Positions 12,342 through 52,705 of a stretch of DNA of 64,000 nucleotides are shown piece after piece. The position numbers were made by a program, and so were the translations under genes. Below the pieces are notes generated by a model. That model saw only the letters and a list, made by a program, of their open reading frames with translations, was not told where the DNA came from and ran no database searches. The DNA comes from Prorocentrum cordatum (taxonomy: Eukaryota > Sar > Dinophyceae > Prorocentrales > Prorocentraceae). The stretch's first letter is position 1. Every line of letters starts with the position of its first letter. The stretch is taken from contig CAUYUJ010003952.1 in NCBI GenBank assembly GCA_963575745.1, positions 10,001 through 74,000 of the forward strand, in the 5' to 3' direction.

Positions 12342-12345
12342 AATT

Positions 12346-12363
12346 TGGTGGACACACTGGGGA
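12346..12363 (+). other. Candidate tRNA primer-binding site
   Basis: TGGTGGACACACTGGGGA starts five bases after the LTR. Its reverse complement ends in CCA, as a tRNA 3' end would. The tRNA was not identified. Confidence 0.4.
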
Positions 12364-12395
12364 GCATTTCATCAGTCGAGGTGCTCTCCAGAGGA

Positions 12396-14212: not shown

Positions 14213-14215
14213 GGC

Positions 14216-22658: not shown

Positions 22659-22670
22659 TCGGTCACAGGA

Positions 22671-22688
22671 TGAAGGCTAGGGGGATGC
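22671..22688 (+). other. Weak candidate polypurine tract
   Basis: A purine-rich run containing AGGGGGA (about 22679-22685) lies directly before the 3' LTR, where second-strand priming is expected. It is short and imperfect. Confidence 0.35.
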
Positions 22689-23159
22689 TGGGCGTGAAAC
22701 TTACCCCAAGCGTGTTCCCCTCACTTCTGTAAATGATATCCTTCGCCTGTGTCATTCCGTACTAATGCACCAAATTCTGCCTTACAGTAAAAGCTCATTG
22801 TAGGTGAGTGTTTCGGGCAGTCTAGTGAGCCATGGGGCCCATAATCGAACGGGACAGGTCCCACAGTTTAGGTCTGTCCTAGTCTGAGCCCTGTAGGTCC
22901 ACTACAGCCCGCCGACAGACCATTTGAGCACATGTGCACAAATGGTTCTTTGCCTTTTGAATGTGCATTGTAGTGTAGCAGAGCATTTGCGCATGCACGA
23001 GCGTAGGGCGCAGCAGGTGCACGAGAGGACTGTGGACTGTAACCACTTTGGCTCAAGACCGAGGCAAAATAATTATTGTCATCGAACCGCCCATCGATTC
23101 GTCACTGTCAGTATTGTTCTAATACCTTTCCAAACCAGTATTGCTTGGAATATTGGGCA
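22689..23159 (+). repeat. 3' LTR
   Basis: 471 bp, 468 identical to the 5' LTR. The SL-like sequence recurs at 23037-23057. It is followed by the CTGT target duplication. Confidence 0.95.
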
Positions 23160-23777: not shown

Positions 23778-24393
23778 GCTCCAGGGGGGGGAAGGGGCTT
23801 CCGGCACTGGTGGAAACCTCTTCCCCGGGCAGGGGGTGGAGGGAGGAAGAGGCTTCCGAATCCGGGGGAAACCTCCCCCGGGGGGGCAGACACCCGGGGC
23901 GAAGCCTGGGGGGTCCGGAGGGAGCCTAGGGGGCCTCTTCCGGATCCATCCCACCCAAACTGCCGGGAAACGAAAAAAACGCTGAAAAGAAAACCGCGGA
24001 CGGGAGGGAAGGGAAAGAAAGGAGAAGAAAGCAGGAGAGAGGGGAGGGGCAGGAAGGAGAACACGGGAGGAGGAGCAGAAGGAGAGGAAAGCAGGAGAGA
24101 GGGAGGAAGAGCACGGAGAGGGGAGGAAGACGGCGGCGGCGACGACGACGACGAACCGCCCGCGCCGCCGGCTCGCCAGCGCCGCGCCCCGCCCCGCGCG
24201 GCCGCCCCGGGACCCCTGCGCGCGCGCGTGGGGGCGGGGGCGCGCCGGGCGGGCGGGCGCGGGCGCTTGGCCGGCCGCGGCGCGCACACACACGCGCGCC
24301 ACACACACCATACACACACGCACACGCGCGCACGCACGCGCACACACCGGATTGGACGGTCGCCCCCAAGGCGGCCGTCCTTTCCTCCGGGGG
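23778..24393 (+). other. GC-rich leader of the giant element
   Basis: G-rich repeats (GGAAACCTC, GGGGGAAACC), then purine-rich GGAGAGGAAAGCAGG-type repeats and a CA/CG-rich stretch (24288-24347) just before the first ATG. No promoter motif was recognised. Confidence 0.5.
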
Positions 24394-27300
24394 ATGGCGG
24401 TTCTTCTCAATCCCATGAGAGACCGTCGTCCCAGTCCATGCATCCCCCCGGATGGCTTCGTGGCGCAAGGCGCAGGCTCAAGGAGCATACTTCCCTCCCC
24501 GACGGCTGGGTTTTCCCCCAGCCAGCCCGGGGGTGTGACGGGGAATGAGGTAGTACTTGGTGAACTGCCGGTGAGACTGGGTATCCCCCAGTCTCATTTC
24601 AGCCTGGGCGCAAGGCGCAATTCGAGCCTCCGGGCAAGAAATGTTGTTGTGGGTTTGGGGGCGGGGGCGGGGCCGGGGGCCGGGCCGGGGCCTGGGGCCG
24701 CGGGGCCGGGGCCGGGGACCCAGGGGCCAGGGGCCGGGGCGGGGTCCTGGACGCAGCGAACTGCGCGTTGGGAGGGGGAAACGCTCGCGATTTTTTCGCG
24801 GGCGTTTTCTTGTCCGGCGCGCGGCTTTCCGAGTGACACGAAGGTTTCTGGAAAAGAGCGCTTGGAGGGGGAAACCCTCGCGAAATTTTCGCAGGCGTTT
24901 TCCTGTCCGGCGCCCGTTTCCCGGATTGGCGCACCGTTTTCTGGAAAACCGGGCTGTGAGGGGGAAACTAACGCGGATTTTCCGTATGAGTTTCCCGCTC
25001 CGGCGCGTCTTTTCTCGGAGAATTCGGCCGCGGGCGGCGGCGGCGGCAGCAGAAACGGGCCGGGAGGCGTTAAAAATCGTCCCCGGGGCGTCAAAAATCG
25101 CTCCGGAGGCGTGCGAAAACGGCTTGCGCACGAGGAGGAAAAGAAGCAGGAGGACGACGAGCAGAAAATGGAGGTCTCGGCCCCGGGCGGCGGCGGCGTC
25201 GAAAACCGGCTCGGAGGCGGTCCGAAACGTTCCCCCAGAGGCGTCCGAAATGATGTCTCGGAGGCGTCTCACATGGTTGCCCCAGAGGCCTCCGAAATGA
25301 TCCCCCAGAGGCGTCCGAAACGGTCCTCCAGAGGCTCGGAGGCGTCCGAAATGATTCCCCGGAAGGGTATCCCGGAGGCGTCCGAAACGGTCCCCCAGAG
25401 GCGTCTGAAATGGTCTCCCGGAGGCGTCAGAAACGGCGGTTCAAAATGGGGTTCCGGAGGCGTCGAAAAACGGTTGGGGGGCAATGATTTTTATGAGCGT
25501 GTTCTCGCCGGGGAAATCTCCGCGTTCGCTGCTAGCGACGACGACGGCGACGACGACGTCTGCCGCGTCCCTGTCCGGGTTTCCGCTATAGCCATGGCTT
25601 TGGCGGACATGGAGGAGGAGAAGGAGGAGGAGGACGAGGGGGAGGAGGAAAGAAAGAGGAGGAGGAGGAGGAGGATGAGGAGGAGGAGGAGGAAGAGGAG
25701 GAGGAGGGGGAGGAGGAGGAAGAGGAAGAGGAGGAGGAGGAGGAGGAGGAGGAGGAGGAGGACGAGGACGAGGAGGGGGGCGGCGCCGACGACGACGACG
25801 ACGACGACCGACGACCGGGACCGGGACCGGGACGGGGACCGGGGCCGGGGCCGGGACCGGGGCCGGGACCGGGACGAAGACGGGGACGGGGACGGGACCC
25901 GGGCGGGGGGCGGTCCCGGATCTCGGGGGCGGTGCGCGGAGCGCTCGGCGCCGGCCCGGGAGTCGCGCGCGTGGGATGTCCGGGTGCAGGAGTGTTTGCT
26001 CGCAGAGCACGACGTGATCCATGAGGAGGTCGTCGATGATTCCGCGCTGGAGGCGGCGGAGCGCGAGCAGAAATCGCTCCGGAAAGCGTGCCGCGCGTCG
26101 TGCCGGCGGGCTCGGTGTGCGCGGCGGGAGGCGGAGTGGGCGCGGCGGACGGAGGCGGCGGCCGAGCGGAACTGGCACCTTGCACACCGTGTGCTGCTCC
26201 CCGTCGTGCCGCGCCCCCTGTTGCGCGACGCGTCGCCAGAGCGGCTTTCGTCTGGGCGCAGCGCGCGGGGGGTGGTTTGCAAGAACGGGCGCGTGGCGGA
26301 GTTCCTGACCGCGCGCGCGGCACGTGCCGTCGACCCGGAACAGCCGCCGGCGCGCGCTCCCCGCGCCGCTGCCGAGGCTGCGCCCGACGCGTTGTCGTGG
26401 ACCGTGGGCGACGCGGCCCTGCGCGCAGCCTGCGTTCTGGTCGCTCTCGGCGTGTGCCCACCACAAGAAGACAGCAGAGTGGTGATGACGAGGAAGATCG
26501 CGGCGGCGCGCTGGTGGCGGCAGCGGGATGTGTTCGCGCGGGAGCTCCCGGACGCGCCCGAGCTGGCCGATCGTGCAGCCGCGGTCGTCACCGCCAGGTG
26601 GTTCTGCTGCGCGCTCTACGGTCTCTCGGCGCGGACGTGCGGCGGCCGCCGCGTCTGTGCGCGCCGGTTCTCGCCGGGCGTCGGGATTGGCGGAGCGAAG
26701 TGCCGGGCTGCGCGGGAGTCCAAGGACTTCGTCGGGGACATGGCCGTGCGCGCTGCCTGCGCCATGATCGCGCTCGGAGCGTGTCCGGCGGGGCTCAGCG
26801 GGGCGACGCAGGACGGCGCCGTGCCCACGTCTGTGGGTGCATTCGGTGCCGCGCGCCCGCTTCGCCCGCGGCCGCGCGGCGGACGCGGGCGGGGGAACCG
26901 CCGCGCGCGCGGGAGTTGTCCAGTCGAGTGGCGTGGGAAGTGTCTGCAGAGCGCAGTGGCTGAGCTTGTCGGGGGCGACGCTGCGCGGCATTTCGGCCGC
27001 GCGTGCCAGAACCACGAGGGTTCCGGCGCTTGTGGGTCGGTGGTGGAGCGCTGCAATCTTGAGGTCGTGGTCCAGCACTTGCGCTCCCGCTTCTTGCGCG
27101 TGCGTGTGTTCTCTGCGGAATCTGTGGAAGCGTTCGGAGCGCAGGAGGGAGGGCGCGTGGCGTGGTCGCTGGGGCACGCGACGGGTTTCTGCGCTGGTGC
27201 TCTGCTGTGGCTTGACGGCGGTCATGTGTGCGCGGTGGAGGAGTCGGTGGGTTCTGGTGACGTGGAGTGGGGGGAAGCCGAGAGCGCGCCGTGGTGTCGC

Positions 27301-30300
27301 GTCGTCGCGCACGGGCGTTCGGGCTCGGCGTCGCGGTCGCCGCGCGCGGGTGCGGGGCGTGGCGCGCTGCGGGGCGGGGCGCCGAAGCGCCGTGTGGAGC
27401 AGGGTGCCGCAGGGGCGCAGGGCGCTCGCGGGGGCGCGCGCGATGGGGTGGACGCGGCGGCGTTGGCCCGGATGAGTTTCGCTGAATTGGAAAAATTGGC
27501 TGCGCGATTGCGGGGCGACCGCGAGACTGGGGTGCCGTCTTCGCGGCGCTGGGATGGCCCGGACCGCAAGCGATTGGACATTGAGGTGTACAGGGCTGCG
27601 CTCGCGGCGCACCTGGGCATCGACATGAGCGGTGTGCAGCGTGCTGGCGCGGAGGCGCGATCGCGGGACCACTCGGAGGAGATGCTGGGCGAGCTGGCGA
27701 GGCACGTGGCTGAGCACGACCGCGTTCCAGCGCAGAAGGAGTCCGCCCTTGGGACATGGGTGCACAACGTGAGCACGGGGCATTTCCCGTTGACGCCCGA
27801 GCGGCGCGCGCGGTTCGACGGGCTCGTGGACCGGCGGGAGGAGAGGCGCGCGCGCGCCCGCGCGATGCTGGACCGCATCGAGGAGCACGTGGAGGTGCTC
27901 GACGAGCTGCCGAAGCAGGGGGCAGAGGACGAGGAGGAGAAGAAGCTCGCGAAGTGGATCCACAATGTCACCACTGGCCAGAACAAGCTGGATGATGACA
28001 ACCAGGAGAGGTTCGATCGTTTGGTGAACAGGGGCATGTGGCAGCGGCGGACGGCGCAGCAGCGTGTGCTCGAGGTAAAGCTTTTCGTGGAGACACACGG
28101 GCGCGCGCCCAGGAGCGGCGGTCATGACGACGATGCGCGGGAGCGTCTGCTCGCGATGTGGATCGGCAACGTGCGCGCGCACGGCCGCCAGGGCCTGGAC
28201 GAGCACTGGCGAGCGCAGTTGGAGGCGGCGCTGGACGCGGATCTCATCCAGGTCCAGGCGCTGGAGGCGTGGTGCGAGAAGAACCAGAGGATGCCGGTGG
28301 AGAAGGCGGAGGATGACGAGGAGCGCAGGCTGGCGAACTTCATCGCGAACCACGAGCGGAAGGGCCGCGCGGCGTCCTTCAACGCGCCCGCGACCTTCGA
28401 CGCGCTGCGGCAGAAGTACGCGCAGGCGGCCGCCGCGCGGCGCGATGCCGAGAGCAGGGGGGCGGAGGCGCGGGCGCTCGAGGCGCAGCGGCTGGAGCTG
28501 CTGCGGCGCGCGGCCGAGGAGGAGGAGGAGGCATTCGGCGAGGAGGAGGAGGAGCAGGAAGAGGAGGACCCGGCCGACTGCCTCGCGGAGGAGCGGCGCG
28601 CGGAGGTCACGCCGGATATGTTCGCTAGGTTCCAGAGGGCAGACAGGGCGCTGGCTCGGCGGGTGAAGACCGCGCTCGTGGCCGCCCTGCTGGAGCACGT
28701 GGACGCGCTGCAGGGCGCCGCGCTCGGGCTCGACGTCTTCGTTGCCCTGGCCAAAGACAGGCGGGTCCGCGAAGCCTTGGCCGCCCCGGCGGCCGAAGAG
28801 CCGCGCCGCGAGGCGCTCGGGGAGGAGGATGAGGAGGAGGAGGAAGAAGAGGAGCAGGAGGAAGAGGAGCAGGAAGAGGAGGAGCAGGAGCAGGGGGAGC
28901 AGGAGCAGGAGCAGGGCGACGAGGAGCGGAGGGAGCAGGAGGAGGGGGACGCAGAGATGGCGGACGCGGAGGAGGAGCCGCGGGGCATGGCGGACGAGGA
29001 GGAGCTCCCCACGGGCATCGACGAGGAGCACGAGGATTTCGTGCGGTACGTGCTGGCGACCTGCATGCTGTCGTATGTGCCCGTCGCGCCCAGGTTCTTC
29101 GCGGGGGAGGCCCCGGACGCGGAGCTGCAGCGGCAGGTGGCGGAGCTGGAGCGGCTGCGGGACGTCGCCCTGGGGCTCGACGCGGCCACGGCGCAGGACA
29201 ACGTGGCGCGGTCGCAGGCGATCCGGCGCCTGCGCAGGGCCGACCCCGAGCTGCTGCGCCGCACGCCCGTGCCCAATTCGGACGTGCGGGAGCCCTGGGA
29301 GCAGTGGCAGCGCCTGCTCCAACGGCTCGAACAGGAGGGCGTGGAGCGCGAGGTCTGGGTCTGCTGCCGTCGCGAGCCGCTGCGCTGGCGCGCGTCGCTC
29401 CGCGACGACGGCAAGCCGGGGCCGGTCCGCGCGCCGCTGCTGCCGTCGCTGGACGCCGCCGAGGGCGAGGTCTGGAGGCCGGGGGAGGTGCGCGAGGCGA
29501 CGCGCCAGGCGCGGTACGCAGAGCAGGCGCGGCTGGACGGCGCTCCTGGCGCCCCGGTGCACGGCAGCGTGCTCTTGCGCCTGCCCTCTGATTTCCTCTG
29601 CTACAAGTGCCAGCAGGATTTCGAGAGCGCGCGGGAGCTGACCGACGGAGAGGTCGATGGTTGGTGTAAGAGGTTGCATTTCGCGCCGAAGAAGCTGCCT
29701 AGCCAGGCGGTGATGAAGCGCGAGGCGGTGGAGGCGGAGCGCGCCCGCGCCAGGAAGCGCGCGCAGGCGGCCCGGTGCGCGGCGGGGGGGGAGAACGGAT
29801 TCGCTGAGTTCCGTGGTCTGCTGCTGGAGGACGAGTGCTTCCACCAGGACAACTGCGAAGCGAGCGTGCAGCTGGACCAGCGACACGCTCTGGAGCCGTG
29901 GTACCAGCGCGCGGGGCCCGACGGGAGCAGGCTGGCGCCCTGGCCGCGCGTCTTCGGTATCCCGAAAGCGTGGGCCGGCCCTGGCCGTGCGTTCTTCTCC
30001 GAGGCCGTGGAGTCGGGTTTCGCCGCCGACACGTTCCCCCAGGGGCGGCGCGGCTACTACACGGGCGAGCCGGGCGACGTGCCCGCGGAGCTCTGGCTGT
30101 TGCGGGCCTGGTGCCGCGCGCGCGGCGGCGTCGCTCGCATGGGCGACGCCCTGGCCGCGCGCTTGCAGCAGCTCGAGGGCGACCGCGACATAATGTACAG
30201 GGTGGAGGCCGCCGAGGGCGCGCGGCGGTCCCCGAGTGGCGACCTGAAGCCGCCCGTGTACTTGGCGGACCTGAAGCCGCAGGCGATCCCCGAGTGGCCC

Positions 30301-33300
30301 GTCTGGCAGCAGCTCCTCAAGCTGAAGCCTCAGGCGGCGCGGCAGGTGGCGGCTTTCGTGCGCCGGGAGCGGGCGGGCGTGGGCTTGACGTGGAACCTCG
30401 CCGCGGGGCACTGGGACCTGGACCAGCAGCGCCTGCTCGCTGCGCTCGAGAGGGATCCCGCGTTGCTCGCCGCGGTGGAGAAGGACGACGCGGCCGCAAA
30501 GAATGATAAGGACGTTCTGATTGCCCTCGACGATTTCCGTGCCCGTCACGGCGGTGTCTGGCCGGACGCGTTCGCCGATCGGCGCGGGGAGCCCGATTTC
30601 AAGGAAGCGAAGCTCGCGCGGGGTGTTGCAAGGGTGGCGACGAAGTATTCGCAGGAATTCGTGCGCATCTGGTTGGACCGGACATGCAGCCAATGGCTGC
30701 GGCTGGCGGGGTGCGGGGATGAGGTGGTGGGAGGAGGGGGCGGCGGCGACGACTCTTCCGGGGGCGGCGGCGGCGGCGGCGGCGGGTCCTCTTCGGGCAG
30801 CGGTGCGAACGGTGGACCAGCGTCGGGGTCGGGCTCTGGTGCGCAGGGGCCGGGCGACGGTGGCGCGGGCGGCGACGGCGACGGGGGCGCGGGCGGGGGC
30901 GCGGGTCGGCTGCTCGGCGGCGGACCCAAGAGGCAAGCCCCCGAGGGCCCAGGGCCGCGGACTCGCGGGGCGGCGAGAAGGGACCAGGAGCGGTTGCAGC
31001 AGGAGCGGCTGCGGAAGGAAGAGGAGGAGCGTCTCAGAGGGAAGACAGTGAAGGCAGGGGACGTGGAGGTGAACGTGGCTCTGGATGACCCCCACGTGAG
31101 CGAGGAGGGCACCTTGCCGGCCTGGCTCCTGGACCCCGCGCCGTGCGTCGCTGGCAGGTGCGTCGCGCGCGTCTGGCACCCGCACCGGGGCGTGCACGTG
31201 CTCGGGCAGTGCCGGCATTCTTGCAAAGGCGAAGGGCAGTTCTGTGGGAGCCACGGCAGACCCGAGCAGCGACCTTTTGGGGAGTGGGACCCGGACCAGC
31301 GCCACAGTTCCCTGACGCGCGAGTGCCCGGAACGGTATGGCTTGGCCGTGAAGGAGGCGCGGAAGCGCGAGACGGATGCCGGCGGCGCCCCGCCCGCGCC
31401 GACCCCGGCCATCGCTGCCGCTCGCAAGGCGCGCGTGCCCAGGCTCCAGCCCGAGTATGTGGCCCTCCCGTGTGGCGAGCGCCGTCCTCTGCGGGCATTT
31501 AAAGAGGCCCCGGAGGCTCTCCCGCCGTTCCCGTGCCGCCTCTGCGACAAGAACTTCGCCACGCATGCCGGCTTCATGACGCACGTGCACGAAAAGCACC
31601 ACGGGTGGCCGGAGTATAGGAAGCGCTTGTTCTACCTGGCCGAGCAGTGGCCCCAGCAGGACGACGACGTGCGGCCCGTGAGGCCCCAGGAGTGGCGGCA
31701 GTGCGTGGAGGCCTTCTCTGAGCACCTCGTCACGGGGTCTCACGACTGGCCGGCCTGCGCAGCGCCCGCCGATTCGGGGGAGGCCGCCGCCGCCGCTGCC
31801 GCGCCGGACGCGCCGCGCGCCTGGTGGAAGCCGCCAGGCGCGGACGGGGCCGTGCCGCCCGCGGGCGTGGACATGCCGCCCGTGGACTTGGACGCGCTGG
31901 GCGCTGCGCCGGCGGCGTCGGACGTCGAGGGGCCCGAGCCCGGGCAGAGTCGCCGCGCCGTGCGCTCGAGGGTCGCGTGCTGCGTCTGCGCTCGTCTCCA
32001 CTGGGCGGACGAGCTGCAGCGCGTGCACTTCTGGCAGCAGCCGGACGGCGCCGGGGAGCGTTCGCTGCTCTGCGACCAGGTGCCGAAGCCGCCCGCGCGC
32101 GCCGAGCTCGAGGCGGCGAGGGGAGAGGCATCCGAGGCCGCGGGCGCGCAGGCGCAGGCCATGCGCCTGACGCAGCGGCAGCGCGCCCACGCGCTGCTGG
32201 ACCCGGCACGGTACCACGCTCGGTGGCGCTTCGTGCGCGAGGGCCCCAACGGCGTCGAGCGCCCGGGCGGCATCCCCCTCGAGGAGCTGGAGGCGTCCGC
32301 AGTGCGCGACCCTGGCCCAGACGGGAAGCTGTGGCTCTTGCACAAGAAGTGCTTCAAGATTGACAGGCGCCAGTCAGACGGGGTGCTCGTGGCCGACGCG
32401 AAGCAGAAGGTGCCCATCTGCGCAGGGTGTCACGGCGCGCTCTCCAAGAGGTTGCCCACGATGCCGCCCTGCGCGCTGGCCAACGATCTCTGGATCGGTC
32501 GGCTGCCACCGCCGCTGCGGAATCTCACGCTGGGCGCGAAGCTTCTGCTGCCCATCGCGCGGGGCATCGTGCGGCGGTTCAACTGCAAGGCCGACTCTGG
32601 TGAGTGGGCTCCGATCGACCAGAAGATCAAGGCGTACGTGGGGAACTTCGTGGCGTTCCCGCAGGCGGACGGCGGCCGGCAGGTGCTGTCGCTGCCGCCG
32701 CGGGAGAGCGACCTCGTCGAGTTCGTGCAGATTGTCTTCGCGGGGTCCGACCCCGCCACCCTGCAGAAGGCGCTATTGGAGGAGCTCGGCGTGCCCCTCG
32801 CCGATTTCAAGCGCGCTTACGAGTACCTCCGCGACACGAACGAGCAGTACGCCGCGGTGCGGTGGGACGAAGAGGCCGCGCAAAACTTTGCGGACCCCGA
32901 GGGCGACGGCGATGGCGACGGCTCCTCGCTCCTGGGCCTGCCTCGCTGTCTCGCGGCGTGCGTGGCCGTGGGGGGTAAGGGCGGCGACGCTCGCCAGGAG
33001 GGCCCGGCCGATGCCGTGCAGCCCGGCGCGGGCTCGGCCCCGCCGAAGCGGACGAGTGCAGGCGCAGCGAGCGCGGAGGGCGAAGCGAACGCGGCGGCTG
33101 ACGGCGGGGGCGAGGCAGGGGGCGGGTGCGGGGATCCCACCGGTGAGGACGCGGCTGGCGCTGGCGGGGAGGATTCAGAGGGCGACGAGGGCGAGGCTGG
33201 TGAGGGAGAGGGCGGCGAGGGTGTCGAGGAGGGCGAGTACTGCGCCGCCGTCGCGGACGCCGACATGCTGGCCGATCTGGACAAGCAGTGGCAGACCGTG

Positions 33301-35790
33301 CACCTCAGCCTCCAGAAGGCGGAGGTGATTGCGCGCGAGAAGCGGCGTGTGGAGGCACTGACGCGGCAGTTCGACGACATGGAGAATTTCCAGGACCGAG
33401 ATTCCGACCTGCGCTTGGCGGAAGCCGCGAAAGAGGCCCACAAGGCTGCGAAGGCGCTCACCAACTGCAACAAGGAGGCGCTCACGAAGAAGCTGGAGCA
33501 GACGGAGCAGAAGATTCAGGCCACGCGGCCTCCTCCGGGAGTCGCCGGGAAGCGCGCGGCCGGTGGCGGCGGCGGCGGCGGCGGCGCGCCGGCCGGGGGC
33601 GCTGAGGGCGGGGGGGCGAGGCGCGCGGTGCGGGTCGTCGTGCCCACTGGAACCGAGCCTGTCAGCATGTTCTCCCCCGGTTTCTGGAGTGCTTTCGACC
33701 CCGTCGCGTTTCCCTACGGCGACGGCGTCTTCGGACTCGACAGGGAGGCGAAGTTGACGTACGACGAGTGGTGCAGGTGCCTCATGGCTCGCGAGGAGCT
33801 CGAGTACGAGGTCCCCGACGACGTCTCGGCGCCCGACGCTGCGCGGGCGCCCGCGCCCGACGCTGCGCGGGCGCCCGCCGCGTCTGAGTCGCCCGTGCCG
33901 CGCTGGCGTCGCCACGCGGACCTGCTCACGGCCCAGTATTGCCTCTGGCGCAGAAAGGCTATCATTCAGTCGGCTAGGTTATTCGTGCGCAAGCAGCGTC
34001 TGGGGGAAAGCATCGCGGACCTCGCCGCACTGACGCCGGAGGATCTGGCGCAGGTCGTGGCCGTGCTCGGCAGGGGGGCGGGCATCAAGGAGGCCCTGGG
34101 CCTCGAGGGCTTGCCCCGGAACGTCAAGAGCGCGCTGCGCAGCATGCTGCTCAGCAACCGTGATGTCGTCGGGTCCGACGCGCACCGGACCACGCTGCGG
34201 CACATCAGTACCAGCTACACCCGGCTCTTCGGGCCGCCCCTGGTGTTCACGACGCCGAACATCGCGGACACTCGGAACCTGATGGTGTCCCTGATGTACG
34301 AGGGCGCCTCCGTACAGCGATGGCGGCTGCTGGAGGAGACTGCTCCTGTGATGCCCTCAACGCGGGACATGCTGCGGCGGGTGGCCGCTGACCCGGTGTC
34401 GCAGGCCATGGTCACGAACCTCATGCTGGAACTGTTCCTGGAGCATGTCGTCGGCGTCACGCGGCAGCGCGGGGCCACGGGCGTCTCCGACGGCGTGGCC
34501 GCCACGGGGGCGTGTGGAGCGTTCGGGCTCGTCCGCGCGTTCTTCGGACCCGTGGAGTCGCAGGGGCGCGGCGGCATCCATCCGCACATCCACCTGTGGC
34601 GCCTGCACCCGATGACCGGCGCGTTCCTCGCGAAGCTGCGCGCGGGGGACGTCGAAGGCCTCGAGGAGCGTCTGAGGAGGTGGAGGGAGGCCGTGCTCGC
34701 CAGGGTCGGCAGCGTGCAGTTCGACGCGGCGGAGGAGGTGGGCCGGCAGCTGGGCTTGGACGGGCCGGACCGTCTGCCGCCGCTTCCGCTCGGCCCGCGG
34801 GATCGACGTCTCGCGTTCGCGGACGGGAAGCGAGAGGAGAGCGACCTCCAATTGAAGTACGATACCATCGCTGGCGCCTCGCGTCGTCAGCTCGGGAAGT
34901 TGTGCAAGAGGGCGTACGAAGAGGGCCGCCGCTCCGTCCGTGCTGACAACCAACTGTCCACAGAAGAGCTGCGGAATCAGGTTGCGGCCATGATGAACGT
35001 CGATCTCGTGGAGGAGCGGGCGATGCTGGAGCAGCAGCCCGCAATAGAGGGTCCGCTCCGGCAGCGACCGTTCGCGCCGCTGGCAGATCCAGAGCCCGAT
35101 CCCCATGAGCAGCGGGCACAGTACCCGGCGGTATTTGGAGAGCCTCTCACGGGTGCGCACGTGACGCTGCAGCCGCAGTACCGCCGCAAGCCTGCGTACC
35201 GCGTGGTGCGCGCGGACGGCGCCGCGGCCATGCACTTTGCTGAGTGCCCGGGGGATGAGGCGCGGACCTGGGCGCGCTGCTTCGCGCGGGACGCGCGCAA
35301 GTGTATCATCCGTGGCCACCTGCACAGGTGCGGTCCCACGTGCTGGAAGCACAAGACGAACGACGATGTGCCTCAGCACTGCAAGGTGTGCCGGCTCGGC
35401 TTCTACCACGAGTACGAGACTGCGGTCTACAGCCACCCGTCCAGGAAGCGTCCTGCCGCCGCCTTCGTCTGGCGGCGCCTGCGCAAGGGGAAGGATTTGG
35501 TGCTTCCGGAAGATGCGAAGGTTCAGTACGCGTGCGGTCCGTTGGAGGAGGGGGAGTGGAACCCTCCTGGCGAGCGCCTGGATCTGGACGACGTTCCGGC
35601 TGAAGGCTACGGCCCGTGGCCGCACCGCTGCAACAGGTACGGCAGAGCTGGTCGCGTCGACGTGGTGCGGTACCACCCGTACCACGGGAGCACGAACCCT
35701 GTGGGCCAGGTGTGTCTGCGGAGCAACCTGGACGTCCAGTGCCTGGACCGCGTGGTGCTCGACCTGCCGGGCGACGACAGCGTCGGGGCG
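24394..35790 (+). CDS. Helitron-like Rep/helicase polyprotein, N-terminal part (through the HUH nuclease)
   Basis: The first ATG of the open frame is at 24394. The N-terminal third is low-complexity: three in-frame 31-residue repeats (E-G-E-T-L-A; 24772-25020), E-A-S-E-M-I-P repeats, and Arg-, Glu- and Asp-rich tracts. A segment around V-G-D-A-A-L-R-A-A-C is duplicated (26406, 26735). 26930-27240 has a Cys (K-C-L-Q-S-A-V) and a His (G-G-H-V-C-A-V) that might form a cysteine protease. 27670-28420 holds four helicase-associated-type repeats. Later come a Cys/His cluster (31140-31260), a C2H2 finger (31527-31605), a DUF6570-like region (32390-32700), and the Rep domain with H-P-H-I-H (34579-34593) and a Y-H-P-Y strand motif (35671). 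The frame must shift near 35790 to continue. The exact start and the reality of the low-complexity part are uncertain. Confidence 0.7.
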
Positions 35791-43034: not shown

Positions 43035-43552
43035 GAGCTGCGCCTCGTGTGCAGCGGCGCTCGCCGGCCCTGGGTGTGCCGTTGACAGAGCTCTGCCGTT
43101 CAAGCGCACCGGGCGCTTGGGCTGCCACTGGAGGTTGGCACGGGCGCCCTGTAGGCGCGTCCGTCTTGCATGTGTGTTCTTGTGTGCCTGTGTGCATGAG
43201 GATGTTTTGTCAGTGCGTGAGTGTGTGTGCGCTGGCGTGTGTTTGTGTTTGCCTGTGTGTCTGCTGGCGTGTGTGTGTAAGTGTGTGTGTGGGTGTCTTT
43301 GTGTCTGTGTGTTTGTGGCTCTGTTTGTGTGTCTGTCTGTGTGTCTGTCTGTGTGTCCGTGGGTATGTGTGTGTGTTTGTCTGTGTGTCTGTATGCATCT
43401 CTGTTTGTATCTCTTTTTGTGCGCGTGTCTGTTCGTGTGTGTGTGTGTGTGTGTGTAAGAGTGGGCGCGTGTGGATGTGAGTGTGCTCGAGCGTGTGTGT
43501 GTATCTGTGTGTGTGTGTGTCAGTGTGTTTGTGTGTGTCTGGTGTGTTTGCG

Positions 43553-43597
<45 letters not shown>

Positions 43598-45140
43598 GCG
43601 GTGTGTGTGTGTGTGATATGTGTTGTGTGTTTGTGTTTGCGCGTTTGCGCGTGGGTGTCGACCTTTGCGTGTGGATGTGTGTGTGTGCGTGTGTGTGGAG
43701 CATGCTTGCGTACGTGTGCGACACTGCGCGCTCCCTGAGGAAAATTGCGTGTGTGCCCGTGTGCGTGCGTGTGTGTGTGTGTGTGTGGGCGCATGGCGCT
43801 GGCACCCCCGCCCCTTCCTGCCCCCCCCTCTCCCCCTCCACCCCTCTCCCCGGCGCTCCGCGAGGGCGGAGTGGCTGGAGTGGAGGGAGGGCCGGCCCCA
43901 AAATGGGGCGGTGCCTCCCCTCTCCGGAGCGCCGGCGGGGAGGGCGGGGGCGCGTGGGGGGGGCTTGGGGGCGCGGTGGAAGAGTGCGCTGACCAGTCGG
44001 GGAATGAGTCTGTCACAACGTTGTCGTCTGTGCGTGGTTATCCGTGGGTGTTCGCCATTGCGTCTATGTGTGCGCTTGTGCGTGTGTGTGTATGTGTGTG
44101 TGTGTGGGGGTGGGTGGGTGGGTGGGTGGGGGGGGGGCGCGTGTGTCTCGTATGTGTGTGTGTGTGTGTGTGTGCCCCTGCGTGTGTCTGGGTGCACATG
44201 CGCGTGTGTGTGTGTGAGTGTGTGTGCGTTTGCGTGTGGACGTGTGTGCGCTCGTGTGTGTATGTGTGTATGTGTGCGTGTGTGTGGAGCATGCTGGCGT
44301 GCGTGCGTGCTCTTGTGTATGTATGGATTTGAGTTTGTCCGTGTGTGTACGCGTGTGCGTGCTTATGCGCGTGTGCTTGCGTGTGTGATTGGTTCTTTGC
44401 TATCCTGCGTCTGTGTTCGTCTGCGCATGTGCCGCCGTCCGCGCGCCCCCTCCTCCCCCCTCGCCCCCCTCGGGCGCTCCGCGAGGGCGGAGTGGTTGGA
44501 GTGGAGGAAGGGCGGGCCACAGAATGGGGCGGTGCCTCCCCCCTCTGGAGCGCCGGCGGGGAGGGCGGGGGCGCTCCGTGCCCCCCGTGTGTGTGTGTAC
44601 TCTTGTGATCCGCGTGCGTGTGCGTGTCCGTGTGTGTGTGTGATATGTTGTGTGTTTGTGTGTGCGCGTTTGCGCGTGTGTTTTGACCTTTGCGTGTGGA
44701 TGTGTGTCTGTCTGCGTGTGTGTGTATTTGTGCGTGTGTGTGTGGAGCATGCTGGCGTATGTGTGTTCTTGTGTATGTATGTGTGTTTGTGTGTTCGCGT
44801 TTGCGCGTGTGTGTGGACGTTCGCGTGTGGATGTGTGTGTGCGTGTGTGTGTATGTGTGTGTGTATGTGCGCATGTGTGTGGAACATGCTGGCGTACGTG
44901 TGTACTCTTTTGTATTAGTCTGTGTGTCTCCGTGTGTGCGTGCCTATGTGCGTGTGCTTGCTTGTGTGACTGCCTGTTTGCTATCCTGCGTCTGTGTTCG
45001 TATGCGCATGTGCGTGTGCGCGTGCGCGCGCGGTGTGGTGCCGCCGTCCGCGCGCCCCCCCTCCCCCCTCCCCCCTCCCCCCCCCGGCGCTCCGCGAGGG
45101 CGGAGTGGTTGGAGCGGAGGGAGGGCCGGCCCCAAAATGG
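43035..45140 (+). repeat. TG-rich 3' region of the giant element, left part
   Basis: After about 120 bases of ordinary sequence, long (TG)n-type runs alternate with a GC-rich unit of about 105 bp that begins GCGCTCCGCGAGGGCGGAG and contains GCCCCAAAATGGGGC. Units start near 43852, 44472 and 45086, so the period is about 620 bp. GGAGCATGCTGGCG also recurs. Open frames rich in Cys and Val on + and Thr and His on - are translations of the repeat. Confidence 0.9.
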
Positions 45141-45161
45141 GGCTCAAGGCTCAAGGCTCAA
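45141..45161 (+). other. Three tandem GGCTCAA at the 5' end of LINE B
   Basis: GGCTCAA three times, then GG. GGCTCAAG is the last eight bases of the dinoflagellate SL; LINE D also starts with GGCTCAAG (54416-54423). This fits an SL-capped or trans-spliced LINE RNA, though the match is short. Confidence 0.4.
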
Positions 45162-45521
45162 GGCGTCGCCAAAAGGCTCGCAGAATACTGCCTGGGGAAC
45201 CTCCTCTTCTGCGAACCTTGTGTGCCTGCTTTCCAATTTTGCTCCACACCTATCACTATTGTGTACGGTATCCTCTTTGTATTGTTGCTGCTCTTCCAAT
45301 ATAGTCGTATCAAAGGGAGCCTGATCGAGTGAGAAACGATTCATTGAAGAAGTGGAAGAATATTGTTGTTCTCTCTTGACAATCACGTCGTATCTAGGGG
45401 AGCCTGATCGTGGGTGGAATCGATTCATTGAAGTAGTGGACAAATATTATTGGCGAGTGTGCATAAGAGAAGCACGAAAGTGCTGGCGTAGACGTAGACA
45501 CAGGACTCAGCAGGTGTTAAA

Positions 45522-46571
45522 ATGGCGTCGGTCCCTCATTCTCAAATGTCGGCTGCAGAGGGTGCTGAACATGTATCAGACGAGGAATTCGAGAGGAATG
45601 TTAAACATCGAGGCGATGATCTACGGAGAGAGAGGGAGGAACTGATCTCGAAGGAGACAAACCCATCCCTTGCGGCTCTTCTTCGACTTGGTTTCACGAA
45701 TGAGGAGAGAACCACGTCTCTTGTCAAGCAGTGTGAGGCCACAGAGAAGAAACTGGCACAGATTGATGAAAAAGTCCAGACACAAGACGAACGTATACAA
45801 AAGCTAGAGCAGATGATGATGTATCCGCCTCAACCTCCTCCTGGTTTAGTGGGCACCGGTAATGCATCTAATGCTTCTCAGGTGTCAGAGCGTAGTTTTT
45901 CGGGAGATTCTGAGAATATGAAGATGGCGAGGAGAATGTGGAAGCCAGAATTCTTGGAAATCAAAGGTTGGGTGAAAAACTGGAGCAATCCCAAGAAACG
46001 CAGTGAGGAAATGCTGGGCCAGAAAGATCTTCAGACATTGGTATCGAATATGGTTGATGCCCTACCAGAGGATACGAAGATGTGTGTGGACAAAGATCGT
46101 ACTATTCGGCTCAATGCTGGACGAACGTTGTATGGTCAGGGGAGGGTGGGGGTTCGAACAGGCACAACTGGTGATATTCTATGGTTATGGAAGAAACACT
46201 TGGATGAGCTGCTCACCTCCCCAGAGGCTGACAAAATACTTGCAGGGATGGACCAGCAAATCGTACCAAGCAAAATCAAGATTTTGGTTGATGCCCCCCC
46301 ATGGAAACGTCCACACATCAAGCAGGTTAGCCGATTTCAGGGTATATTCAAAACGCTTGCCCATCCGAGCTTTGTTCCTCTGCGTGGTGAAATGGGCCCC
46401 CCACGTTCCTCGATCTATGTGCATTCGGTAGATTCTAAACCATTTCTCCTGGCGGAATGGAAGGGTGAGTCTTGGGAGATCTTCGAAGAACAATGGGCGA
46501 CAATGTGTGCTAAATATGATATCAAAGACGTAACGATCACGAAAATGAAAGAGGAGTTAAGTAAAAACTGA
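45522..46571 (+). CDS. LINE B ORF1 protein
   Basis: 349 codons from ATG 45522. The N-terminal half has a charged coiled coil (about residues 65-105, including K-L-A-Q-I-D-E-K-V-Q) followed by a proline cluster (Y-P-P-Q-P-P-P-G). The C-terminal half is shared with LINE D ORF1: W-V-K-N-W-S, I-R-L-N-A-G-R-T, and R-G-E-M-G-P-P. Coiled coil plus conserved C-terminal domain is typical of non-LTR ORF1 proteins that bind the element RNA, but no named RNA-binding domain is recognisable. It ends in TGA, and ORF2 follows in the same frame. Confidence 0.8.
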   Translation: MASVPHSQMSAAEGAEHVSDEEFERNVKHRGDDLRREREELISKETNPSLAALLRLGFTNEERTTSLVKQCEATEKKLAQIDEKVQTQDERIQKLEQMMMYPPQPPPGLVGTGNASNASQVSERSFSGDSENMKMARRMWKPEFLEIKGWVKNWSNPKKRSEEMLGQKDLQTLVSNMVDALPEDTKMCVDKDRTIRLNAGRTLYGQGRVGVRTGTTGDILWLWKKHLDELLTSPEADKILAGMDQQIVPSKIKILVDAPPWKRPHIKQVSRFQGIFKTLAHPSFVPLRGEMGPPRSSIYVHSVDSKPFLLAEWKGESWEIFEEQWATMCAKYDIKDVTITKMKEELSKN

Positions 46572-49500
46572 GGACGTGCTCGACGGAAAAACCTGACTAT
46601 CATTTCTTGGAATATCCAGAAGGCAGGAGTGAGGAACTGTAGAGGAGCTGAGATTTTGGGACAACTTCGTAGCTGTCACGGAGGCTTGTTCGCATTGCAA
46701 GTGAGTGATTTTCTTCCCAGAGCCGAGATTGCACGTCTAGGATGGGACCAGAGAGTTTCATCATGTGGGAAAGCTGCCCTAGTGTTCGACAATGCATGGA
46801 AATGTTGTATCAAAGAATTCGTTTGCTCGTATCCTCGTTTCGTCGTAGGAGGCTTCAAGACTGCTACTTCGAGGCTGGTGATCACCAGCATGTACCTTCC
46901 AGATGTTTCGATCCCGAATGCTTTTGATATGTGGCAGCAAACCCTGACCAACCTCAATATGGTCCTCAGGGAGATGGTTGCCACGAAGCTGCCAGGTGCC
47001 TGCATCATTGTTTGCGTGGATGCTAATGTGGAATTGGTGGGGAGGAGTACGGGAGTTCATCGAGGAGTTGAATATATTATGACAGGAAGTGGTGTGGATG
47101 GAAAGGAGGAAGGAGGCGACAGCACGGCGGAGAGGAGGAGGGAGAACGACAGATGGAGGATGAGGCATGCGCTGGAATGCTTTATGCAATCGTACGGGCT
47201 CTGTGCTGCCAACACTTTCGGCGACCGTGCAGTGACGTGGGAGAGCTACGCGCGAGCACACTGTCGCCTTGCTAGAGCACCAGAGCTGCGGCCACGAGTA
47301 TTAGATTAGGTTCTGGTCCCTCATGGTTGGGAAATTATTGAATGTAAGGCATCCTTTCGTTTGCATAGAGGAGGGAAGACTCAGCGATCCCGTCTGAGTG
47401 AACATAAACTCTTGGAAGTTTGTGTTCGTTCCCCTGTCGTCCATTGTCCCCGTTTCTCCGCTAAACCCCGTGATAAAAGCTATGTGGGATATGAGCCAAA
47501 CACGTTCACGGATGAGATGATCGCGAGAGCTTCGATGGACTCGTTTGTTGACAATGCCAGGTGTTCCTCAGTAAGTGGTAATCCTCTGGGGGCCAGCTGT
47601 TTGTCACGACAGATCAAATCGAGCTTTACTCGGGATGAGGTGGAATATAAGACAAGAGATGACAATGGTATTAAACAGCCTGTGCGCCCTTATAGACTCC
47701 AGAGGTTGATTGAACTCCGTAGGGGAACCCCACCTGGGCCAGAAAGGAAACAGATCACAAAAGTTTTGAATGGCTATCGCCGTCTATACCGCCGTCTTCG
47801 TTTGGAGTATGAATTACCACCGTCAAGGAAAAGGAAGAGAAACCGTCTCTATAACCTGGAAGGAGTGGAGGACAGAGAGATATGGAACAAAGTTATCTGG
47901 CAGATGCTCAAGAATAAGGTATCGTGTGCCCAGACTCGTGTTGCCAATCTAGAGGTGCTGCAGTCTCTCAGACAGGCTGCGGAGCTGGAGGCTCCACCAT
48001 GCACCATCACGCTGGCGAATATGCTTTGCTGCAGGGGAAGAATGCAGCGTAACCGCGCGACGGGGACTGGTGGAGTGCCTGCAGAGATGCTCCTTCGATT
48101 GTCGTGGAAAACGTTGAGAGAGGTGCGAAGGATATTCGAGGCTGTATTTCATAGACAGATTCCGTGCCCTGATTGCTGGAGGGAGATCATAGTGAGTGTG
48201 ATGCCTAAAAGTCAAAACACCACGGATGCAAAGGAAACGAGACTACTGTGTATTCAAAACGCGTTATCTAAACTTTATTCTATGTGTGTGGTCAAGTTAG
48301 CGGAGGATTATATGGAGGAGGTGGGGATGTTTCGGAGATTTGGTGTGTATGGATTTGTGAAAGGACGGAGGCCATATGAGATTACGACTGCATTGAAACA
48401 CTTAGGTCAACATGCTAGCAAATATCAGCACGCAGATGATCAATTACATGTTGCTCTCGCAGATGTTTATCAAGCTTTTGATCATTGTACGGTTGCTAAC
48501 TTCAGTTCTGCCATGGCATATTGTAGTATACCATATGTTATCCAACATGCGATGATTGAGTCCCTGGTCTATAGTGATGTGGAGATCTCGTGTGAGAATC
48601 TCGACTTCGAGCGGTTCTCAAAGGTGTCCTGGGATCGCTGTATACGTACGGGTGGACCTGAAGGACCGTTTGCCTTTAATTTTATTGCCGTGGCGATGTG
48701 GGGGGAACTGTTCGAGAAATGGGATGAACAGAAGTTGGGGTATAGGGTCGAGTTTCGAGCGAGTGCGAGGGACGAAAACGGGAGCGTCGAAACGGTGTCG
48801 ATTTACTTGAATCATGCCTTATGGGCTGATAACATCGTTGTCCTGGCGAACTCGGCGTCGGATTTGGCTCAGATGATGCTGGCAATGACACACTCACTTG
48901 AGAAATACAGTATGCGATGGAAAGAGGCGTCTCTGGAGTATTTAGTTTTCGGTGAACCTCTAGAGTATGATGAGAATGAACACATCGTTCCGACCATGGA
49001 CCTGGTGATCAAAGGATTTCAGGACCCAGAACGTGAATTGAGATTTCGCAGAAGGGCTGAGGTTCATCTCCTAGGAGTCTGTATTCCAGCTATATTTCCT
49101 CGATATCATGCGGATGTAGCGTACAGATTGGACAAAGGAAGACAGGCCTTCTATGTTGACATCAAGTTCTATACCAGCAGATGTATACCATTGAGGGAAA
49201 AGTATTCTAGATATCAACAGCTTGTTCAGTCGACAGTATTGTATGGATTAGATGGAGTAGCAGCAGATGAAAGTTCGATTGAGAGACTTCATGTGTTTGA
49301 GGGAGAGTGCTTGCTCAGAATATTGAGAACGAGACATCTTCCTGATGAGCCGTGGGACGAGTATACACATCGGAAGTACAGCCGATGTAGGAAAGCTTTT
49401 CATGATCATGGGTATCAGTCGCTGGTGCAAAAATTCTTGTATCGTCAGTGGTTGCTTGCATTGGATGTGGTGTCGTTTGCAAAATATCTACCTCATGACA

Positions 49501-50303
49501 TGCCGCAGAGTGACAGAGCATGGAGGGACTCAAGGTTGGCAATGCTTGCATACGGAATCCGATATGATGAATGGCGGCAGAATTTTGGGGATATCATGCA
49601 CAGATATAACTCGAAAAGAAAACGGTCAGAGGAGGGAAGCTACCGCAAAAGGAAAAGAGGGATTGACGCGACGGGTCTACATACATGGCACTATCCTTTC
49701 GAAAAATATTGGGGTGATCAGTGGTGGAGAGATTTCCAGCCTGATAGCTGGAGAGAGTTTGCAATATCTACGGTGGGTGAGGAGAAGTTCAGCTTGTTCC
49801 AATCAAATGTTAAAGGATCAGGAGGGAGACGTACTGTGTATGATATGGAAGAGGAGGGTGGAAATGAGGCAACACGTAAACGAAGGAGGAAGGAGGAGGA
49901 GGTCCAGAATGAAATCATCACCAGACGTTTAGCAATAACAAACATGAAAGCAACAGAATGGGATTTCAAAACACATGGTTTTGGAGTGGAGATCTGTGGG
50001 GATTCTCTTCTTATCATATCTTGGCTCCTAGGGAGGTGGGCGATAACTGACTACACGTATCGAAAAAGAATAGGCTATATCATTGACATCATGAGCGGTC
50101 TGACGGAGATCTATGGAGTTCGGGCACCTTCGAATGGCTGGGATCCTTTTAAGCATGAGTTTCGGGAAGTAAATGAGCATGCGGATCGACTCACACATGA
50201 TGCCCGCGAGGGCAGATCACACGAATGGAAGCGCTCTTTTTGCATGACACACACATGGACATATAACACCTATCGCATTGAGGGGGTCCTTCGATGGCGG
50301 TAA
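46572..50303 (+). pseudogene. LINE B ORF2: endonuclease, reverse transcriptase, first half of RNase H
   Basis: Open in the ORF1 frame directly after its stop, with no good ATG before the endonuclease strand I-S-W-N-I-Q. The endonuclease has V-D-A-N-V-E-L and T-W-E-S-Y, but the catalytic Glu of the L-Q-E motif is Val (A-L-Q-V-S-D) and the final S-D-H is S-E-H, so it may be inactive. A single in-frame TAG lies at 47307-47309. RT (about 48000-48950) shows D-V-Y-Q-A-F-D, G-G-P-E-G-P-F and W-A-D-N (48822-48833). The end has G-D-S-L-L-I-I-S-W (Asp 50001) and N-E-H-A-D-R-L (Asp 50184). A stop follows at 50301 because of a one-base shift in a run of G near 50285. Confidence 0.85.
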
Positions 50304-50529
50304 ATCTGAGGATGGAGTAGGATGTGGTGCATGGCTCGAGGCGGCGTTCATATCCAGGTCCGACAGGATCGAAGGAAAGTTTTCGACCGTGTCCTGGCAA
50401 CTCGTCTGGGAAAAAGCATGGTTGATTCCGTCGGAGAGCGCAGTCACACAGGCTGAATTATCCGCAGCAGAGTGTACGGTACACAACATCGTTCGTTTGC
50501 TTGGTGAGTTTGAGTCTTACTTTACTTGA
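50278..50529 (+). pseudogene. LINE B ORF2, second half of the permuted RNase H
   Basis: One frame forward of the main ORF2. S-F-D-G-G (Asp 50293) with G-V-G-C-G-A-W resembles RNase H strands 1-2, and T-Q-A-E-L-S-A-A-E (Glu 50455) resembles helix A. In LINE A both halves lie in one frame, so this part belongs to ORF2. It ends at TGA 50527. Confidence 0.7.
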
Positions 50530-50753
50530 TCGTGGATTGTTAAAGATTGTGCTCACACGGATGAATAAGAGTTTGGTTTCTCGTGTACTGCCCGCGTGTT
50601 TGACGCGGATGATATCTCATGAGCTTCGCTCTTGTCATCTGTCCGTGTGCTTGGCACAGTTTTGACTCGCATGATCATGCAAATAAGAGTCTCTGCCGAG
50701 ACGGACACTGCGACTGGGCCGTCAGGCCCGTGAGTGTCGTTGCCAGACAGCCA
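50530..50753 (+). other. LINE B 3' UTR
   Basis: Contains GAATAAGAGTTTGG (about 50562) and CAAATAAGAGTC (about 50680). The same ATAAGAGT core is present in LINEs A and D. There is no poly(A). Confidence 0.7.
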
Positions 50754-51494
50754 GCCTCCCCCCTCCGGAGCGCCGGCGGGAAGAGCAGGGGGGGCGGGGC
50801 GCGCAGGGGCGGCAGGGGGGTGGCGGGGGCGGAGAGCGCTGACCAGTGTGGGGATGGGTGTGTAAGTGCGACGTCGTCAGTGTGTCCGTGTCTGTGGATT
50901 GTGTGTGTGTGTGTGTGTGCGTGTGTGTGTGCGTGTGCGTGTGCGTGTCTGGCAGGTGGTGTGTGTGGGGGCGCGTGTGTGTGTGTGTGTGTGTGTGTGG
51001 CTGTGTCTGCGTTTGTCTGTTTGTGTGTGTGTGTGCGTGTGTGCGTGCGTGTGTGTGTGTATGTGTGTGTGTGTGTGTGCGTTTGCGTGCGTGTGTGCGC
51101 GCGCGGTGCAGGCGCCGCCCGCGCCCCCCCCCCCCATCCCCCCCCCAGCGCTCCGCGAGGGCGGAGTGGATGGAGTGGAGGGAGGGCCGGCCCCGACATG
51201 GGGCGGTGCCTCCCCCCTCCGGAGCGCCGGCGGAAATGGGGGGGGCGGGGTGCGCGGGGTCGCGAGGATTTCGCGGGGGAATGAGGGCGCTGAGCAGCGG
51301 GGGATCGGTTTGTGAGTGCGAGGGCGTCGGTTCGTCTGTATCTGTAGATGTTTGCGTTTGTGTGTGTGTGTGTGTCTGGCAGGCAGGTGTGTGTGTGTGT
51401 GTGTGCGTGTGTGTGGCCGCGTCTGTGTGTGTGTGTGTGCGTGTGCGTGCGGGTGTGTCTGTGTCTGTGTCTGTGTTCGTGTCTTTCTGCGCGC

Positions 51495-51530
<36 letters not shown>

Positions 51531-51929
51531 GATTTTTTGTTGGTGCGTGTGTGTGTGTGTGTTTGTGTGCGTGTGTGTGTGCGTGTGTGTGTGTGCGTGA
51601 GGGGGTGCCCGCGCGCGAGTGAGCGCGCGTGGTTGTGAGTGCGTGCCCGCGTGAGATTTTGTGTATATTCGCGTGCGCGCGCATGTGCGTGCGCGCGCTC
51701 GTGCCCGGTGCGTTGCCGCGCTTGCTGACGTCGATTGTATTTTCGCATGCTTGTCCATCTGTACATGTCTACCTACATGTTCGCTTCCGCGGCAGCATCG
51801 CTCTCGCGCGCTGAAAGACGCACTACAACTCGTACATGTATGTGTCCATTTTATTATTCGAAATATTTCACCGTGCGCACTCCAGAGATACGCGTGGACT
51901 TATGACACGTGGCTAGGAGCTCTACGAGG
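50754..51929 (+). repeat. TG-rich 3' region and terminal repeat of the giant element, right part
   Basis: Continues the GC-rich unit cut by LINE B, then TG-rich runs with one more unit near 51149, and from about 51583 the tail shared with 1-345. It ends in GAGCTCTACGAGG (51917-51929), the M1-type 3' terminal repeat. Confidence 0.85.
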
Positions 51930-52676
51930 GACGTTGGCGTTGTCATAATCGTGCATATCGTGAGCGTGTACACAGGTGTGTCAATGACATGTACGCACTT
52001 AGCCTTTCACACCGAGCACGGGCATCGAACGTTGGGAGAGACATATTTGTACATGAATTTCGTGAAGCAAACACCCGAGCAGACGAACTTACTCATTTGG
52101 CCAGGGATGGCCACACATTTCATCAAAACTATTGCCATCGATATCCTTTCGAACGAGATTCTTTGAAGGTAGTCGACTGTCGTGGAGGGTACGACGGGGG
52201 AGTGTGCAGCAAGGGCAGTGCATGCGGTTACTGGATGCAGGTTGGCTATCTCAACATGTCCTCACGGGCGTCTCGGCATGGAGTGTGTTCTTCACGATAC
52301 TCCCCCTACCCGACCTCTTCCTCTCTACATTATCATGCTGACACACCGTTGATTTGGAGAGACGCTGCTGCTGCGGCCTGGCTGGAGCCAGGCGCCACGA
52401 TCACCGAATGTGAGTTGTCCGCTGCCGAAGCATTGACACGTGCCATACGCATACAGCTACAGCAATTTGATGACAGTGATTTTGCTTCTTGATGATGTTA
52501 TCCCTACGCCCTCCTGGGCTCGGGAATCGTCTTCAAGTTTAGCAATGTTATATGACACCTCAGCCCGCCTCCGTGGGTAGGTGCTCGTTTCACTGCTGCT
52601 CAGTTGCCAGGCTGCGTAGCTGACACGGGCTGCGCTGAAGACCAGCGCCTCGCCAGCCCGCGTAAACACAAAAACC
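51930..52676 (+). mobile_element. LINE C: 3' fragment of a non-LTR retrotransposon
   Basis: A strongly 5'-truncated copy that keeps only the RNase H end and 3' UTR. The frame from about 51989 to 52492 reads R-E-A-N-T-R-A-D-E-L (Asp 52082), then G-G-Y-D-G-G (Asp 52191), then T-E-C-E-L-S-A-A-E (Glu 52411), in the permuted order seen in the other LINEs. Flanks: GAGCTCTACGAGG on the left, AGGTTGACGG and the hairpin right arm on the right. The 3' end is A-rich (CACAAAAACC), as in LINE A. Confidence 0.8.
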
Positions 52677-52705
52677 AGGTTGACGGTTTACCGCCGGCGC
52701 CCAGT
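52677..52705 (+). repeat. Right arm of the giant element's terminal hairpin
   Basis: AGGTTGACGG, TTTACCGCCGG and CCCAGT. The left arm was displaced or lost at the LINE C insertion; only the terminal repeat remains on the left. Confidence 0.75.

Follow-up and report, generated by a model that had tools for sequence, protein, structure and literature searches.

Two kinds of rolling-circle transposon with a deubiquitinase of their own have been described. Helentron families of diverse species encode an OTU-fold cysteine protease of the deubiquitinase class, together with an apurinic/apyrimidinic (AP) endonuclease and RPA open reading frames (ORFs) (PMC4067079), and Helitrons and Helentrons of animals carry a viral tegument-like deubiquitinase (VTD) domain beside an AP endonuclease, three such domains from zebrafish being active on ubiquitin (PMC9741609). 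A further group, Helitron2, has a Rep/helicase without endonuclease and a palindromic sequence near an end, and the retrieved passages of its description mention no ubiquitin-specific protease (USP) (PMC4067079). Here we analyzed a window of 64,000 nucleotides from the dinoflagellate Prorocentrum cordatum (assembly GCA_963575745.1, contig CAUYUJ010003952.1, positions 10,001 to 74,000 of the forward strand), in which an initial annotation had recognized a giant Helitron-like element encoding a complete USP. We consider it likely from the domain assignments and homologies that this copy is one 3'-damaged member of a high-copy dinoflagellate Helitron family whose giant RepHel protein bears a USP-class peptidase, and that the fused USP would take ubiquitin off the element's own protein or off host proteins.

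The locus resembles the VTD elements in combining rolling-circle RepHel functions with a papain-fold deubiquitinase in one ORF, and differs from them in the class of the domain, which here is a USP placed behind the helicase. No OTU or tegument-like (VTD) profile matched the window ORFs or 14 relatives in Pfam scans, and neither the AP endonuclease nor the RPA ORFs of the OTU Helentrons were found in the window family. The endonuclease was absent from P0001 and P0002, the products of the two window ORFs, at E <= 1 and from the 14 relatives at E <= 0.001. We therefore rejected a Helentron identity for the element. A Rep/helicase with no endonuclease found and a palindrome close to one end are features that it has in common with Helitron2. 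A full-text literature search, which included the retrieved portions of PMC9741609, PMC4067079, and PMC7928374 and had subscription papers, preprints, and Repbase outside its range, yielded no Helitron with a USP. The fusion of a USP to a Helitron RepHel thus appears to be a pairing for which we found no earlier description, within a kind of element already known from the OTU and VTD Helitrons.

The family protein is composed, in this order, of an N-terminal region, a DUF6570 domain, an HUH-type Rep with two tyrosines, a Pif1 helicase, and the USP, plus a C-terminal Cys/His motif in some members (Table 1). The motifs on which the initial annotation relied (HPHIH, YQTDYTTK, GEGGTGKT, CFVSA, HYYAC, and DD) are all present at the bases it had given. 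The HUH Rep and the two catalytic tyrosines identify a Helitron, as does the Pif1 helicase C-terminal to Rep, which shares one ORF with Rep and the USP in six relatives. One apparent polyprotein had been proposed for the window as well; in this copy, however, Rep lies in one frame and the two-tyrosine motif, helicase, and USP lie in another, on either side of a frame change. The element also behaves as a mobile repeat, with fixed ends in differing flanks.

The C-terminal domain belongs to the C19 peptidases. The UCH profile matched along its whole length (positions 1-254 of 254, E 9e-23), and a profile built from nine family USPs retrieved USP36 from the PDB at E 3e-33, plus many further USPs, in agreement with the earlier claim of a complete domain. 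The USP fold itself was seen in a predicted model, for which AlphaFold2 gave a predicted local distance difference test (pLDDT) score of 83.5 and a predicted template-modelling (pTM) score of 0.85. By their titles, the best 50 of 644 Foldseek matches were USP structures or chains of deubiquitinase complexes, and they included USP14 (E 3.9e-21) and USP46 (TM-score 0.80 by target length). Across nine aligned members, the Cys-box Asn, the catalytic Cys and His, and the second Asp of [DN]D are invariant, as are six additional cysteines; in the window these invariant positions include Asn 40710 and Cys 41115, 41124, 41271, and 41322, the last four being presumed finger cysteines. In a wider set of 15 proteins, the catalytic Cys was kept in all; the His and the final [DN]D Asp were each kept in 14 of 14, the fifteenth protein being cut at its end. 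We take the catalytic roles of the Cys, His, and Asp/Asn residues to be those assigned in the USP literature. The middle of the domain (approximately residues 1800-1920 of P0002), presumably the fingers, is its most variable part. Cellular USPs such as USP36, Ubp8, USP14, and USP46 have the same catalytic set and predicted fold, but identity was 15-22% among the Foldseek matches listed, and the family is fused to RepHel and forms a separate branch in a tree with 11 other USPs, where 17 family rows (14 Helitron proteins and three close USP fragments) fell on one side with support of 99/98. Removal of ubiquitin is accordingly a predicted activity, based on profile and model.

We searched the P. 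cordatum assembly (4,128,499,153 bases in 21,875 contigs) with the window USP protein and obtained at least 116 matches (1,017 candidates, 116 scored). Besides the window itself, 46 of 115 matches were 100% identical (rounded) over residues 1-351; 45 of these 46 have one common score slightly under that of the window and probably differ from it by a single residue. Counted by length alone, with the frames themselves unread, 60 of the 116 open frames are long enough to span everything between the helicase Walker A and the stop, and 39 would extend back as far as the Rep HUH motif; nine reach at least 5,000 codons, the longest 5,931. Among 30 loci fetched, the window's included, helicase and USP were both present in 29 and lay in one frame in 27. 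Other copies, and distant relatives too, thus carry the USP in the same place, as the initial annotation had suggested one should look for. The best-stretch identity of the other 29 loci to the window was 98.96-99.90%, a near-identity which indicates that the family spread recently. The first eight Rep loci (L001-L008, ~3.5 kb each) showed no USP or family-type helicase, but are too short to tell.

Helicase and USP are also inherited together beyond this genome. Relatives were sought with helicase residues 905-1510 as the only query, candidate length being limited to 0.55-1.75 times that of the window ORF. Of the 43 matches, the 14 nearest (37-70% identity) all had PF00443, and the remaining 29 (23-33% identity) had none by precomputed Pfam. 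Our own profile scan of the 14, several of which look truncated, found UCH in 14, PIF1 in 12, and Helitron_like_N in six, with the USP C-terminal to the helicase motifs in each. Trees of the two domains, with 13 members each (P0007 and P0018 were omitted as incomplete), largely agree: both group the window with P0005, that pair with P0006, P0013 with P0014, and, with less support, P0016 with P0017. Over 78 pairs, helicase and USP identities were correlated (Mantel r 0.79, p 0.0001). The divergent tail of P0021 could be aligned in the Cys box only. A search for relatives in viral contigs and in bacterial and archaeal genome contigs led nowhere. Three side observations concern the relatives. The EukProt protein P0048, filed under the green alga Pyramimonas sp., has a USP 69% identical to that of the window, by either contamination or transfer between hosts. 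Extra modules occur in related Helitron proteins, namely DUF4116 in P0011 and a second USP-like domain in P0018. An ASCH domain was found by Pfam in one of the 14 members, and inspection by eye showed comparable stretches in P0014 and P0015.

Based on family membership, Rep-helicase would move the element by rolling-circle transfer. Its fusion to Rep would bring the USP, in cis, to the place where Rep works during transposition. There it could strip ubiquitin from the Rep-USP protein or from host proteins of the donor or target site, and the de-ubiquitinated complex would thereby escape degradation or ubiquitin-dependent silencing. Elements of this kind already carry known deubiquitinases (OTU, VTD), and a USP among them fits this idea. 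Also on the supporting side, the ratio of non-synonymous to synonymous rates (dN/dS) of the USP between the window and eight diverged copies was 0.33-0.72. For C17306, the most diverged copy, it was 0.43 (site counts, p 6e-5 against neutrality); of its 113 differences, 66 are non-synonymous, where site counts would predict 75%.

Several observations weigh against this interpretation. In the same eight comparisons, dN/dS was 0.19-0.80 for the linker and 0.36-1.40 for the helicase piece, some values coming from few differences; the USP therefore does not stand out and the dN/dS evidence is weak. The ratios were moreover taken between whole copies that are not independent and of which some are dead. 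In every one of the 78 pairs, USP identity lay below helicase identity (median rate ratio 1.5), for which relaxed constraint could be an alternative cause. The USP tree leaves six of its 10 inner branches unresolved and disagrees with the helicase tree on the position of P0010 and P0011. None of the 11 comparison USPs is labelled dinoflagellate, so that the tree does not settle donor or timing. Finally, the window copy is itself broken, by the frame change and by a long interspersed nuclear element (LINE) that replaces its 3' end.

Differences between copies are unevenly distributed along the protein. As aligned, C17306 is identical to the window at 64% in the helicase, 94% in the linker, and 83% in the USP, and comparison with the database protein P0052 gave 79.7% (173/217) for the USP and 97.9% (278/284) for the tail. 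These figures would be explained if copies recombine, if the USP changes faster, or if both occur.

The initial annotation had offered two roles for the enzyme, processing of the polyprotein and removal of ubiquitin from Rep or host factors. Processing, in which the USP would release Rep, helicase, and the remaining parts by cleaving the giant protein, is unlikely, although it survives better than the other alternatives. The very long open frames of other copies would suit it, but USPs as a class cleave after ubiquitin tails, no ubiquitin-like domain was detected in P0001 or P0002 at E <= 1, and the interval between helicase and USP holds no conserved block in a consensus of 14 relatives. We found no positive evidence for it, and deubiquitination of Rep or host factors seems the better guess from the sequences. 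An action on some ubiquitin-like modifier, or mere binding of ubiquitin, is improbable for the domain: its presumed fingers vary most and USP18 bound to ISG15 is among the Foldseek matches listed, yet the family has preserved the catalytic set and the additional invariant cysteines. Helitrons often capture fragments of host genes, and a USP that is a captured piece of this sort, useless to the element, would agree with a USP dN/dS not below that of the linker. This explanation is already strongly disfavoured, since the USP occurs in all 14 nearest relatives, its catalytic residues persist at a mean pairwise USP identity of 31%, and the helicase and USP trees are largely congruent. An artefact, be it a host USP gene lying beside a Helitron or an assembly chimera, would be in keeping with the frame change and LINE junction shown by the window copy alone, and is refuted by the genome matches, the joint presence of helicase and USP at 29 of 30 loci, and relatives of other origin. 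A USP restricted to one copy, host-gene flanks, and a different protease family, the outcomes that the initial annotation had named as telling against itself, were not encountered, and the flanks of the copies consist of array sequence.

The left boundary of the element at 23778 stands as first proposed, as the same end recurs in C15489 (L042) and C15325 (L051), two of 10 fetched 5' regions, which have one common flank unlike that of the window. The element start was not seen in seven of these regions (L043, L045-L050), and L044 is rearranged at its 5' side. The first 90 bases fold at -43 kcal/mol with RNA parameters, a value without shuffle control. The right boundary at 52705 did not hold: it is the tail of the LINE, and other copies show the real 3' end. 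Varied flanks follow GCCTCTTTGCTATCCGGGTTTTGGACGCTACCAAR, or a sequence close to it, in eight of the 10 3' regions that were fetched, the junction reading ...GGACGCTACCAAR and then T, or a close form; L058 shows no end, and L040 continues into the LINE. This terminal sequence was not found in the window. Canonical Helitrons begin with 5' TC, end in 3' CTRR, and insert between A and T. The ends observed here, a 5' T followed by GCTCC and a 3' ...AAR with R in seven of eight copies and T as next base in seven of eight, differ from these Helitron1 ends. The 28-nt tail at 23750 and 52678 was rejected as a pair of Helitron ends or a target duplication, because it closes three LINEs and small array units.

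The LINE gave an RVT_1 match of E 3e-6, just below the cut-off, and its protein is 33% identical over 1,004 amino acids to that of a LINE ORF at 55962; its 28-nt tail also closes two other LINEs. In C17578, the same LINE adjoins the GT-rich part of the Helitron (99.1% identity over 3.1 kb), either because the composite was copied or because the LINE prefers GT-rich stretches. At the LINE start (45100-45190), tandem GGCTCAAG repeats stand beside CCCCAAAATGGGG and resemble relict spliced-leader ends.

Table 1. Features of the Helitron copy and of the adjoining LINE in the window.
Feature	Position	Strand	Evidence
Helitron 5' end, T before the junction and then GCTCCAGGGG..., GC-rich hairpin just inside	23778..23867	+	Same first base in two other copies
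DUF6570 + Helitron_like_N ORF	24352-36801 (frame open from 23986)	+	Pfam
N-terminal + Rep part of giant ORF (frame mod 3 = 1; start codon not fixed)	25582..35800	+	Coding signal, GC3, homology
HA (helicase-associated) repeat, best of four stretches, other three not located	27676..27822	+	PF03457 E 9.5e-6, 26.3 bits vs cut-off 28.4
DUF6570	32458..32877	+	PF20209 E 2.1e-18
Rep, Helitron_like_N, HUH motif HPHIH at 34579	34018..34590	+	PF14214 E 9e-10, motif
PIF1 + UCH ORF	35616-43034 (frame open from 35604)	+	Pfam
Frame change, Rep vs helicase-USP (bounds approximate)	35800..36080	+	Frame-resolved homology, coding signal
Two-tyrosine motif YQTDYTTK	36537..36560	+	Motif
Pif1-type helicase; Walker A GEGGTGKT 38523, RTVQTAQG 39825, YVMLSRVR 39924	38508..39947	+	PF05970 E 2.5e-14, motifs
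USP (UCH) domain; Cys 40725 (CFVSA), His 41538 (HYYAC), [DN]D 41586/41589	40698..41669	+	Pfam, PDB profile, alignment, predicted fold
C-terminal Cys/His motif CMARTW...QC...CGQH	42210..42296	+	Same pattern after USP in P0005, P0006, P0008, P0010
Stop codon of helicase-USP ORF	43032..43034	+	
GT-rich 3' part of Helitron, true 3' end missing in window copy	43035..45054	+	96% identity to C15489 over 42912-45143
LINE replacing Helitron 3' end, outside Helitron; open frames 45498-46571, 46572-47309, 47310-50303	45055..52705	+	RVT_1, homology, tail

Coding signal and G+C at third codon positions (GC3) support the frame of the Rep part from ~25.8 kb, and codon bias backs the named frames to near the stop at 43034. 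Since the training set of this codon-bias scan came from parts of these very ORFs, the independent evidence for the N-terminal part is its homology to relatives, which spans ~30.0 to 35.8 kb. Long open frames arise easily because of a G+C content of ~70% (the window averages ~59%), and the reverse strand also has an open frame of 2,300 codons. GC3 falls from mostly 0.80-0.93 in Rep and helicase to 0.68-0.76 in the USP and tail (40.2-42.9 kb), as though this region had a history of its own. The Cys/His pattern behind the USP was unmatched in relatives other than the four listed in Table 1. In the N-terminal region, 26899-27438 holds a GKCLQSAVAEL...GGHVCAVE pattern that by eye is like another cysteine-protease-like domain; for this stretch (26.9-27.4 kb), Pfam and PDB gave no match, and a structure model with a pLDDT of 41 was not used.

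Other elements crowd the window. A long terminal repeat (LTR) retrotransposon occupies 11868-23159, with reverse transcriptase, RNase H, and integrase ORFs and 474-bp LTRs that are 99.2% identical. Each LTR has CTGTAACCACTTTGGCTCAAG (at 12219 and 23037), a 21-mer that we take to be three mismatches from the dinoflagellate spliced leader. The 28-nt tail GGTTGACGGTTTACCGCCGGCGCCCAGT occurs at 16 places in 5335-63499 with five or fewer mismatches, on the + strand only, and closes the three LINEs and array units of ~1 kb, as expected of LINEs and partners resembling short interspersed nuclear elements with a common 3' tail. One 1-kb unit with a similar closing tail (7467-8510) contains stretches 75-79% similar to the 5' region of the Helitron (24021-24204 and 24695-24801) and is perhaps a chimeric or non-autonomous unit. 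The sequence CTATCCGGGTTTTGGACGCTTACAAG or a close form, near the Helitron 3' end sequence, was seen in flanking array units (L041:3783, L053:965, and L055:795, in element orientation), which are possible non-autonomous partners.

With a USP following OTU and VTD, the repeated recruitment of deubiquitination takes on the look of a rule, which suggests that rolling-circle transposition in general has to pass a ubiquitin checkpoint. More speculatively, and less likely than not, the dinoflagellate USP-RepHel may represent a third independent deubiquitinase class fixed in Helitrons, needed for their spread, countering ubiquitin-dependent host control, and re-sorted and diversified between copies by recombination. 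Being recent and of high copy number, the family lends itself to a test of the checkpoint idea, by comparison of near-identical copies whose active site is intact or lost. For the dinoflagellate genome, the finding adds a large element family, and it points to a transposon open frame that comes close to 6,000 codons.

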